Below are positions 25,665 through 28,549 of a stretch of DNA of 64,000 nt, one piece after another. Each line of letters begins with the position of its first letter. The first letter of the stretch is position 1. This DNA is from Komagataeibacter sucrofermentans DSM 15973 (lineage in GTDB: Bacteria > Pseudomonadota > Alphaproteobacteria > Acetobacterales > Acetobacteraceae): positions 2,788,001 through 2,852,000 of the forward strand of contig NZ_CP137157.1 of the NCBI RefSeq assembly GCF_040581405.1, in the 5' to 3' direction. Made by a program: the position numbers and the translations under genes. Under the pieces are notes generated by a model, which worked only from the letters and a program-made list of their open reading frames with translations, did no database searches and was not told the DNA's origin.

Positions 25665-26303
25665 ATGATGCCCACGCCCTCCGCGCCGGAACCGACACGG
25701 GAACGCAGCGAACGCTCGTCTAGCCGCAAGCTGGTCGTGGTGGGGCTGATTGCGGCCGTCGTGGCCGGCGGGGGACTGGGCGCTGGCGGCTTCCTGACCC
25801 CGGAGGAAGGTGGCAGCGGCAGCCAGACGCCCCCCGTCGCAGCCGAGGCCGGCGGCGGCCGGGGCAATGGCGGCAATCACCTCATGCTGAACGCGCCGGT
25901 GCAGGGCAGGCCCGACATGATGGGCCAGATGCCCATGATCTCGCCCGATCGCGCGGCGGAAATGCTGCGCCAGACAAGTTTTACACTGCAGGAGCAGGCC
26001 GAGATCATGGCGGCGTTGCGACGGCGCGAGATCATACTGGCCGACATGCCGATGTATGACACCGCAGGCGGCGGGTCAGTCGTAAACGTGGAGTCCCTTG
26101 GTCTCGTGCAGACCGTGCATCTCGGGCCGCAGCCCCGCAGCGTGATCCTGCCCATCCGCATCGCAGGCAATGTGTCGATCTCGCCCGCGGGTGACCCGGG
26201 GCCGATGGGCGTGCACGCCGCGGCGGTGTTCGTGCCGGGGCCCATGCCGCTGCCGGTGCTGATGCGCGGGGTCAATTTTGTCATCGGGGTTGTGGTGCAA
26301 TGA
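25665..26303 (+). CDS. Unknown single-pass membrane protein, first gene of AAA+ operon
   Basis: 212 residues, not recognised. A basic, Ser/Arg-rich N-terminus (TRERSERSSSRK) is followed by one membrane segment (LVVVGLIAAVVAGGGLGAGG), then a Gly-rich linker with Met/Pro-rich stretches, a short helix (ISPDRAAEMLRQTSFTLQEQ) and a beta-rich C-terminal part ending NFVIGVVVQ. The bulk should be periplasmic. Its stop overlaps the start of the AAA+ gene by four bases (ATGA), which ties the two products together. The open frame extends upstream, but the paired ATGs at 25665/25668 fit a membrane-protein start best. Confidence 0.7.
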   Translation: MMPTPSAPEPTRERSERSSSRKLVVVGLIAAVVAGGGLGAGGFLTPEEGGSGSQTPPVAAEAGGGRGNGGNHLMLNAPVQGRPDMMGQMPMISPDRAAEMLRQTSFTLQEQAEIMAALRRREIILADMPMYDTAGGGSVVNVESLGLVQTVHLGPQPRSVILPIRIAGNVSISPAGDPGPMGVHAAAVFVPGPMPLPVLMRGVNFVIGVVVQ

Positions 26304-27571
26304 AGCCGCTTTATCCGATCCTGATGGAACGGGTCGTGCCGATCGCCATGGTTATTTTCCTGGTGCTTGGCAGTTTTCAGGCCGCAATGGCGTTGCATCT
26401 TTCGCTCGCCAGCATACGGCATTTCATGGAATGGTGCGCACCGGCCTATCCGGTCATGGCGGCGGTAAGCGCCCTGCTGGTGCTGAGCGGGCTGTGGTTC
26501 GATAGCCGGGCCGAGAAACTCGCCCGCAAGGGAATCCGACGCAGACGGGGATGGATGATGGACGTACTGGCCAGGCTGACCAATCGTAGCGCGCTTGAGG
26601 AAATGCTGGCGCGCGAACAGAAAGAAACCGTGATCGACGCCGAGGAACTCGCCGCCAGCCTGCGCGCGCGCGTGATCGGCCAGGACCAGGTATGCGAGGA
26701 CGTGGCGACCCAGCTGCGCCGCCGCCTGGCCCTGCAGGTGCGCGGCAAGCCGGTGGGAATCTTCCTGCTTGCCGGGCCGCCGGGCACGGGCAAGACCTAT
26801 CTGGCCAAGCAGCTTGCCCGCCAGCTTGACCGCCCGCTGCTCAACTTCGACATGACGCAGATGAGCTCGCCCCATGCCGCCACCCAGCTCTTCGGCTCGC
26901 CCAAGGGGTATGTCGGCTCGGACACCTACGGCAAGCTGACCGGCGGCCTGAAGGAAAAGCCGGATGCGGTAGTGCTGCTCGATGAAATCGAGAAAGCGCA
27001 CCCCGATGTGTTCAAGAAATTCCTGACCGCCTGGAATGACGGGCACGTGACCGAGGCCTCGACGGGGCAGCAGATCTCGACCGTGCGCTGCATCTTCATC
27101 CTGACATCGAACATCGCCACCGATGCGCTGTCCGAGATCGCGGACCGGCTGGCGGATGAACCCGACAAGATGCGCGCCGAGTCGGTCGAGGCGCTGCGCC
27201 AGGCAGGCTTTGCGCCTGAAGTGCTGAACCGGCTGGACCGCATTTTCGTGTTCCGCCCGCTTGAAGGGCTGGACATCGCCCGCGTGTCGGCGCTGGAAAT
27301 CGAGGCGATGATCGACAGTTATGGCCTCAAGGTCGAGACCGGGGGCATCGACCCCGCCCTGCTGTTCGAGGTCATGCGCCGCCAGGGCCGCATGGGCCCT
27401 GCCGCAAGTGCGCGCGACCTGGCCCGCTCGATCGAGGACATGATCAGCGACTCGCTCATCACCGCCCGCCAGCAGGGTGCCAAACTTGTGCGCGTAGTGC
27501 AGAACGAAGATGGCATCGTGGCCGAAATCGCGGACAAGGGCGACGCGCAGCAGGCCCGGATCAGTTCCTGA
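26300..27571 (+). CDS. Membrane-anchored single-ring Clp-type AAA+ ATPase
   Basis: 423 residues. Two hydrophobic segments (about 12-32 and 50-66) anchor the N-terminus. One AAA+ module of the ClpB/ClpA D2 type follows: VIGQDQV (125-131), Walker A GPPGTGKT (159-166), pore loop GYVG (203-206), Walker B LLDEIEKAHPDV (226-237), sensor 1 LTSN (268-271), arginine-finger region EVLNRLD, and a sensor-2 Arg in ARDLARSIEDMI. ATPase activity and threading of protein are therefore likely. It lacks the Clp N-domain, the D1 ring and any ClpP-docking IGF/IGL loop that I can see. It is coupled to the preceding gene and 42 bases from the next. Function unknown. Confidence 0.88.
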   Translation: MKPLYPILMERVVPIAMVIFLVLGSFQAAMALHLSLASIRHFMEWCAPAYPVMAAVSALLVLSGLWFDSRAEKLARKGIRRRRGWMMDVLARLTNRSALEEMLAREQKETVIDAEELAASLRARVIGQDQVCEDVATQLRRRLALQVRGKPVGIFLLAGPPGTGKTYLAKQLARQLDRPLLNFDMTQMSSPHAATQLFGSPKGYVGSDTYGKLTGGLKEKPDAVVLLDEIEKAHPDVFKKFLTAWNDGHVTEASTGQQISTVRCIFILTSNIATDALSEIADRLADEPDKMRAESVEALRQAGFAPEVLNRLDRIFVFRPLEGLDIARVSALEIEAMIDSYGLKVETGGIDPALLFEVMRRQGRMGPAASARDLARSIEDMISDSLITARQQGAKLVRVVQNEDGIVAEIADKGDAQQARISS

Positions 27572-27613
27572 GCCATGGCCGTGCTGTTCCGCCCTGCCCC
27601 CGTGGCCTGCTGA

Positions 27614-28549
27614 ATGTCTGCTTTTTCGCGCCTCTGGTATCGTGCGCCGTTGTGGCGTCTGTGCCTGTACCTGATCCTGCCGTTCGTGGCGCTGACGTTC
27701 ATTTTCCCGCCCGCCTATCTTACGCGGTGGCTGCCCCGCATGGGGCAGATCACCACGGCCATCCATAAGCGCCTTGGCATGCAGGACCTGCCTGCCGACG
27801 CCAACCAGTTCGGCGGGCCGGGAGATGGGGTCGTGACCATCATGCCCATCACAGAGCGCCTGACCAAGGCGATTCCGTTTGCCGGGCGCATCCTGCCGCT
27901 GCCCGCAGGCGTGTGGCACCCGATCATCAACGTGATTGAAGGCCCGCATGGCGAAGTGCTGGAAAACATTCTGGTGCGGGTGCAGAATCATGTCGTGACC
28001 GGCCTGATCGTGGCCAGCGGCACGACACAGTCGATCCTGACCGCCGCCAACACCACAATGGACACGGAATGCCATGATGACCGCAACTACATGGCGCATA
28101 TCGCGGCCAGCCATCCGCCCGTGATGGAATGCTGGCTCACGCGCCTGGTCGATCCGGCCTCCATCCTCCACATGAACGTCATTGCCGAGCGGCTGCAGCA
28201 GGAAGGCATCACGCTGCCGCCTGTCCTGCTCAGGGCCACGTGGATCAACAGCGCCGCCGCCTCCGAAGACAGCCTCAATGCCGAGACGGTGGCCATCTAT
28301 CTCAATCCGGTCAACCTCGACGACACCAAGACCCTGCGCTCACCCGGTTTCTGGACCAGGGAGGCGCTGACGCAGCAACCCGCCGCCAATGACTTCGTCA
28401 GGCGCATGAATGCATGGATGGCAGGCTGGGCACCGGTGCTGCATGATGGCTTCAACAGCGACATGCTGGCCTCAAGCGAGGAGCAGCGCGCCCGGCTTTC
28501 GGTTGACCCGGCAGCCCCCCGCCCCGGCGAAGGCAACCCGCTGGACTAA
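27614..28549 (+). CDS. Unknown membrane-anchored protein, third gene of AAA+ operon
   Basis: 311 residues, not recognised. One N-terminal membrane segment (LWRLCLYLILPFVALTFIF) precedes a large domain that would be periplasmic. Cysteines occur at TECHDDRN and VMECWLT and could pair if exported. The C-terminus is Pro-rich (DPAAPRPGEGNPLD). It lies 42 bases after the AAA+ gene with no terminator between, so it is probably the last gene of the same operon. I can name no domain. Confidence 0.7.
   Translation: MSAFSRLWYRAPLWRLCLYLILPFVALTFIFPPAYLTRWLPRMGQITTAIHKRLGMQDLPADANQFGGPGDGVVTIMPITERLTKAIPFAGRILPLPAGVWHPIINVIEGPHGEVLENILVRVQNHVVTGLIVASGTTQSILTAANTTMDTECHDDRNYMAHIAASHPPVMECWLTRLVDPASILHMNVIAERLQQEGITLPPVLLRATWINSAAASEDSLNAETVAIYLNPVNLDDTKTLRSPGFWTREALTQQPAANDFVRRMNAWMAGWAPVLHDGFNSDMLASSEEQRARLSVDPAAPRPGEGNPLD

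Follow-up and report, generated by a model that had tools for sequence, protein, structure and literature searches.

A predicted membrane-anchored, single-ring Clp-type ATPase encoded with two membrane proteins in Acetobacteraceae

Introduction

The AAA+ unfoldase usually pictured at the bacterial membrane is FtsH, in which two N-terminal membrane segments are followed by a cytosolic AAA+ ring and, in the same chain, a zinc metalloprotease. Msp1 and YjoB are membrane-anchored AAA+ proteins without a protease, and Torsin is a single-ring Clp relative that sits at the membrane with the bitopic proteins LAP1 and LULL1. Here we describe three genes, P1, P2 and P3, which fill positions 25665–28549 (+ strand) of a 64,000-nucleotide stretch of Komagataeibacter sucrofermentans DSM 15973 (assembly GCF_040581405.1, contig NZ_CP137157.1, positions 2,788,001 to 2,852,000; hereafter the window, whose numbering is used throughout). 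The middle gene encodes an ATPase that resembles each of these systems in part.

P2 shares Walker A and B, a GYVG pore loop, sensor 1 and an NR arginine finger with the second ring (D2) of ClpB, ClpA, ClpC and ClpE. In contrast to those proteins, it has no N-domain or first ring, carries two membrane segments and the signatures GSD..G.LTGGL and LTAWNDG, and falls in a clade of its own. The arrangement of membrane segments and ring is that of FtsH, whereas the FtsH profile (TIGR01241, FtsH_fam) scores only 17.4 bits against a cut-off of 600 and aligns to residues 151–175 alone. Msp1 and YjoB belong to the classical AAA branch and have no P1 or P3. Torsin is lumenal, with AAA-like partners, whereas P2 is predicted to be cytosolic, and family and structure-match searches gave no AAA-like match for P1 or P3. 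Dodola DolB and PDC-M37B share a ClpB-like AAA module with P2, and only the AAA part of P2 matches them; a PADLOC scan, confined to the module genes, gave no match for P1 or P3 at an expectation value (E) of 1 or better.

Because P2 scores below the cut-offs of the ClpB, ClpA, FtsH and Torsin profiles, we place the module outside these families, as an apparent variant of the membrane-anchored AAA+ machine; what defines it, a membrane-anchored ATPase with an adjoining P3 carrying the motif LWxx[AS]xxWR, is found in the window. The initial annotation could name no described system with this layout, and we found no account of the P1-P2-P3 family in the open-licence PubMed Central papers searched. 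The portions of PMC8602642 and PMC12041372 available to us contain nothing on these genes. If our reading is right, a Clp-D2 ring with FtsH-like topology and two envelope proteins would be an architecture beside the soluble Clp rings and FtsH.

P2 resembles the second ring of ClpB and ClpA

P2 (423 residues, 26300–27571) shows hydropathy peaks at about residues 7–25 (26318–26374) and 47–65 (26438–26494), which we read as membrane segments; with the threshold unchanged, the number of peaks in some homologues is one or three. A linker with the family signature MDVLARLTNR (residues 87–96, 26558–26587) follows, and then a single AAA+ module with Walker A GPPGTGKT (residues 159–166, 26774–26797), pore loop GYVG (residues 203–206, 26906–26917) and Walker B VVLLDEIEKAH (residues 224–234, 26969–27001). 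Downstream lie TSN, PEVLNRLD (27215–27238) and SARD, which we take to be sensor 1, the arginine finger (putatively R311) and sensor 2, respectively.

Profile comparisons agree with these assignments. AAA_2 (PF07724) scores 131.3 bits over residues 150–314, against a gathering score of 27, which places P2 in the Clp/Hsp100 class of AAA+ proteins. The full-length models fall short of their cut-offs: ClpB (TIGR03346) reaches 178.5 of 1232.1 bits and aligns over profile positions 535–847 of 853, the second ring, and ClpA (TIGR02639) reaches 166.4 of 993.15 bits over positions 447–716 of 734. Torsin (PF06309) scores 24.6 bits, below the gathering cut-off of 27. The best solved relatives are ClpE (157 bits) and ClpB (148.9 bits). 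Hydropathy, motifs and alignments thus bear out the earlier description of two N-terminal membrane segments and one AAA+ module of second-ring type; the length of the protein and the profile alignments likewise show that it lacks the Clp N-domain and the first ring.

Among 58 AAA domains placed on a tree, a branch with 100/100 support sets all 32 membrane-anchored rows apart from the rest. The remaining rows are all D2 domains (7 ClpB, 6 ClpA, 2 other, 11 viral), with the ClpA, 'other' and two of the ClpB labels assigned by length of the open reading frame (ORF) and score. Two caveats are that long branches (L213, 5.56; L185, 4.22; others) are placed with little certainty, and that the branch dividing the two sides is itself long. 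On this tree, P2 belongs to a distinct clade of predicted inner-membrane-anchored, single-ring Clp/Hsp100-D2 motors beside the D2 rings of ClpA and ClpB. Catalytic and pore motifs are intact in 31 of 35 aligned members, the exceptions being L183–L185 and a variant, L213.

To compare rates of change, we calculated the ratio of nonsynonymous to synonymous substitution (dN/dS) between the window and a same-genus relative with our own Nei-Gojobori script. The values are 0.044 for P2, 0.302 for P3 and 0.221 for P1: the motor is conserved, and its partners change faster.

We also considered a viral source for P2. In viral ORFs the matching ring mostly lies behind several hundred residues, and three of these ORFs show two Walker A motifs, which argues against phage origin; this comparison covers the best 80 of 476 confirmed loci, among at least 599 candidate stretches, and a few ORFs are shorter and possibly cut. 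Viral contigs gave no match to a motif pattern of the family designed to exclude most forms from acetic acid bacteria, and P0015 matched nothing in phages.

The three genes occur together

The P1 stop overlaps the P2 start (ATGA, gap –4), in keeping with the coupling proposed at the outset, and P3 begins 42 bases beyond P2, as annotated. P1, P2 (E of 1e-60 or better) and P3 were each found in the same 27 of 100 relatives (9 of 82 genera). Order and strand are constant wherever both neighbours could be placed, and the 4-base overlap of P1 and P2 recurs in most loci. Joint presence and an order kept in differing contexts rule out chance neighbours, and the flanking genes do accompany the ATPase in relatives.

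Across Acetobacteraceae, the P2 profile detected 71 of the 299 genomes searched, spread over 25 of 102 sampled genera; loci were fetched for part of these genomes. In the class its matches numbered 2 among 385 genomes, and in the phylum 2 among 398, all inside Acetobacteraceae; since each genome contributes four or five scored candidates to these searches, weak members may escape. Among the 24 fetched loci, the P3 profile finds P3 in every one and the P1 profile finds P1 in 20, most rows of both profiles coming from the first ten of these loci. The four without P1 are L183–L185 and L182, which begins at a contig start.

A DNA pattern of the family, built to leave out most acetic acid bacteria, marked 22 stretches in genome contigs, of which 14 are labelled as Acetobacteraceae genera or Rhodospirillales and the rest as Microvirga (5) and the three Betaproteobacteria Accumulibacter, Azonexus and Sulfuriferula. 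P1 and P2 occur in Accumulibacter and Azonexus alongside a P3-like gene of 484 residues; Sulfuriferula has P2 and P3 with no P1 recognised; in Microvirga, P2 is joined by a short P3 and P1 is absent. In five Microvirga loci (L031, L203, L206, L208, L210), a gene of 125–134 residues lies immediately ahead of the ATPase ORF or overlaps its start. Plasmid searches returned a copy in Microvirga VF16 (50.9% identity) and, by way of the P1 domain, a divergent P1-ATPase pair near mobQ on a Methylorubrum plasmid, beside which the profile recognised no P3. The same searches gave no plasmid copies of the window's own P1 and P3.

P1 and P3 are membrane proteins without a named family

P1 (212 residues, 25665–26303) has an N-tail that varies among homologues, one membrane segment read by eye, and an extracytoplasmic domain (residues 84–212, 25914–26300) predicted as two helices and a beta-sandwich. 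Residues 81–212 are modelled confidently (block mean predicted local distance difference test, pLDDT, 85–98), and residues 1–80, including the membrane segment, have pLDDT of 44–60 and yield no structural information. The structure matches are generic beta-sandwiches with no firm relative. A P1-domain profile (six rows, one from an Acetobacteraceae member) gave matches in 4 of 172 genomes, three of them weak and the fourth, at 4.9e-10, the window's own P1. On a Rhodovulum plasmid, one protein (L214:11074-12264) has a signal-like start and a C-terminal P1-type domain, with no ATPase annotated beside it.

P3 (311 residues, 27614–28549) has a short N-tail with the motif LWYRAPLWR (residues 7–15, 27632–27658), a membrane segment read by eye that is also a helix in the predicted model (residues 12–30), and a periplasmic domain predicted as alpha/beta (residues about 73–283, 27830–28462). 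Of its two conserved cysteines, Cys153 (28070–28072) is kept in 90% or more of 41 aligned rows and Cys173 (28130–28132) is invariant in them. PsbP, DcrB, SciW and LpqN make up a Mog1/PsbP-like grouping; the likeness of P3 to such folds is near background. In two further loci (L231 and L235), genes whose products combine a signal-like N-terminus with a periplasmic domain like that of P3 lie beside a gene of 564–568 residues that we presume to be a TpsB-like transporter.

What stays constant in P3 is the N-terminal motif together with the membrane segment. LWxx[AS]xxWR occurs in 75 of 76 distinct P3 proteins selected by profile and in none of 5637 other ORFs of the loci, a count that is partly circular since the selecting profile contains the motif. 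In Microvirga, P3 is 61–82 residues long, and motif and membrane segment, present in 5 of 5, make up nearly the whole protein.

Neither P1 nor P3 reached a curated family cut-off in any library scanned. The weak matches, KYNU_C (12.2 bits, cut-off 27), CU044_5270_fam (14.4, cut-off 100), B9-C2 (12.3, cut-off 27), phrog_13336 (9.8, no cut-off given) and, for homologues, DUF6611 (17.1, cut-off 27), were set aside. The initial annotation had called P1 a bitopic membrane protein of no known family and P3 a membrane-anchored protein with cysteines, and had proposed looking for a periplasmic fold in both; these descriptions hold, the single-chain models predict the folds given above, and none of the three proteins reaches the curated cut-off of a characterised whole-protein family.

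Degenerate ATPases have P3 and no recognisable P1 beside them

Four genomes carry open P2 frames with degenerate motifs. In L183 (G913) and L264 (G954), from one genus, Walker A reads GPAGNGKK, the pore loop is replaced, the Walker B acids are swapped and the sensor-1 Asn is replaced. L184 (G873) has Walker A GPKGTGKK, a deleted pore loop and Asn for the Walker B Asp; L185 (G827) has Walker A GPAHTGKG and a deleted pore loop, and its Walker B Glu is lost together with both sensors and the finger. Common to all four is loss of the Walker A Thr and of the pore loop, from which we infer that these forms have lost ATP hydrolysis. The membrane segments remain in L183–L185, and genus-mates G858 (L188) and G047 (L064) have intact motifs. 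The AAA parts of L188 and L183 are 56% identical, compared to 86% for the intact pair L188 and L066; the corresponding values for the anchor region are 42% and 56%.

In the best P3 and nusA trees the degenerate label changes three times, and well-supported branches force no fewer than two of these changes. A change could in principle be a regain, which we consider unlikely for a deleted pore loop. Between L183 and L264, the sole degenerate pair open to this comparison, dN/dS is 0.057 for P2 and 0.058 for P3, compared to 0.044 for P2 of an intact pair, suggesting that the degenerate ATPase of that pair is maintained. It seems that some lineages can dispense with hydrolysis.

P3 with its motif stands beside all four degenerate ATPases, and a recognisable P1 beside none, a result that covers the loci themselves. 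We tallied P1 for 77 distinct P2 segments with loci, many of them close relatives. Where motifs are intact and at least 650 bases lie upstream, P1 is present in 61 cases and absent in 4; seven loci with less upstream sequence (one with P1, six without) are uninformative. L213, with its variant pore loop, has P1 and no P3 by profile; P3 of L192 is below the cut-off in the tally and is seen in the locus view. The loose Walker A pattern of the tally scored L185 as positive through a chance match at another site, whereas its aligned Walker A is altered. For Acetobacteraceae, in loci that extend far enough upstream, absence of P1 coincides exactly with loss of the ATPase motifs. The two partners are unequal: P3 is constant in motif and membrane segment, whereas no P1 was seen next to any of the four degenerate ATPases.

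A motor that may become a scaffold

The absence of P1 where ATPase motifs are lost suggests that P1 takes part in the ATP-driven step, and the constant part of P3, which is located at the membrane and is kept where the motor has degenerated, suggests docking on the P2 anchor. On this basis P2 would form a hexamer on the cytosolic face and, with no protease, work as a motor that threads or remodels proteins. P3 would be its standing partner, with LWxxAxxWR and the membrane segment docked on the P2 anchor and the periplasmic domain displayed. P1, its variable tail in the cytosol, could serve the ATP-driven step as its client or cofactor, for instance as a subunit loaded on or pulled off P3. Once P1 was lost, the motor would no longer be needed and P2 would persist as an ATP-independent scaffold for P3. 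We consider this model, taken whole, about equally likely to stand or to fall. More tentative, and rather doubtful as it stands, is the wider proposal of a new class of membrane-bound Clp machine with separable motor and scaffold roles, in which a nine-residue motif docks P3, P1 is an ATP-dependent client, and the ring has repeatedly become a maintained pseudo-ATPase scaffold after loss of P1.

The initial annotation had suggested an inner-membrane unfoldase that extracts or remodels envelope proteins with two membrane partners. Its anchored, single-ring Clp-D2 motor in a conserved operon stands, and P2 may extract or remodel envelope proteins; since some lineages apparently do without hydrolysis, an FtsH-like extractor is too simple a picture of the module, and the partners are not equivalent.

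Several points weigh against the motor-to-scaffold model. Besides the circularity of the motif count and the restriction of the P1 result to the loci themselves, P3 of Microvirga, Accumulibacter and Azonexus is recognised mainly by LWxx[AS]xxWR. The presumed loss of hydrolysis is read from sequence, and there L183 retains two acids at Walker B, in swapped order, and L184 retains the sensor-1 Asn and the finger Arg. Independent losses are few. Intact ATPases without an adjoining P1 occur in Microvirga (L203, L206, L208) and Sulfuriferula (L211), indicating that P1 is not always needed and that its link to the motifs is not universal. Finally, P1 of L188 (G858), which the tally counts as present, is broken into two reading frames next to an intact ATPase, so that either P1 is going first or the sequence contains an error. 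Close relatives with intact and degenerate rings, together with the minimal P3 of Microvirga, make the role of an AAA+ ring without hydrolysis directly testable.

MacB, FtsEX and TonB systems are models of mechanotransmission, and P2 could act in a similar way, its ATP-driven ring changes passing through the P3 membrane segment to the periplasm and driving an envelope process, such as the handling of a lipid, polymer or cofactor, with no threading of protein. That the constant part of P3 is motif plus membrane segment, and that in P1 and P3 the domains modelled with confidence follow the membrane segment, would suit such a device. The pore loop, however, keeps the form GY[VIS]GS[DE], a threading feature, in 31 of 35 aligned members, and in the one pair compared, P2 and P3 are under constraint despite the lost ATPase motifs; we regard mechanotransmission as credible and on the whole unlikely. 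A motor regulated in the manner of Torsin with LAP1 and LULL1, where P1 or P3 activates the ATPase and is not its client, would explain bitopic partners around a membrane-anchored single-ring Clp relative and also the missing P1 beside the four degenerate ATPases. This is improbable, as P1 and P3 show no likeness to AAA proteins, unlike LAP1, and the Pfam Torsin model stays below its cut-off on P2.

A Clp-D2 motor at the membrane might also feed membrane proteins to ClpP as a Clp-type stand-in for FtsH, and the strongest library match of P2 is PHROG 4871 (208.9 bits), annotated as an ATP-dependent protease. Yet between sensor 1 and the arginine finger, where we assume that the ClpP-docking IGF/LGF loop would fall, we saw by eye no IGF-type tripeptide except AGF directly before PEVLNR, and library scans recognised no protease within the module, leaving tethered proteolysis quite improbable. 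We give least credence to a role in defence or in mobile elements like that of the ClpB-like DolB or PDC-M37B. The AAA region of P2 does match PDC-M37B (85.5 bits) and DolB (72.8 bits), and the Methylorubrum pair and one Microvirga copy are on plasmids, but P1 and P3 went unmatched in PADLOC, and the acetic acid bacteria examined share one chromosomal place for the module, beside what we take to be rimP-nusA-infB. The motor-to-scaffold model remains our preferred account.

Genomic surroundings

The genome that contains the window measures 3.44 Mb, with the window on its contig 1, and has no ClpB over the cut-off; we draw no conclusion from this as to replacement of ClpB by P2. Partial, incomplete ClpB matches occur in two sister genomes (L269, L270; G002, G004), and the apparent absence is not to be read as loss.

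An inverted repeat 3′ of P3 (28583–28608), seen by eye and not called by a terminator scan, is a possible terminator. The hosts of the module include vinegar bacteria such as Acetobacter and Asaia. In acetic acid bacterial loci L060–L063 and L067–L069, presumed homologues of rimP, nusA and infB lie on one side and of ccm genes on the other, with a presumed acnA homologue in between in all except L067 (the neighbours of L064 to L067 are covered in part). In other Acetobacteraceae, the surroundings of the locus differ.

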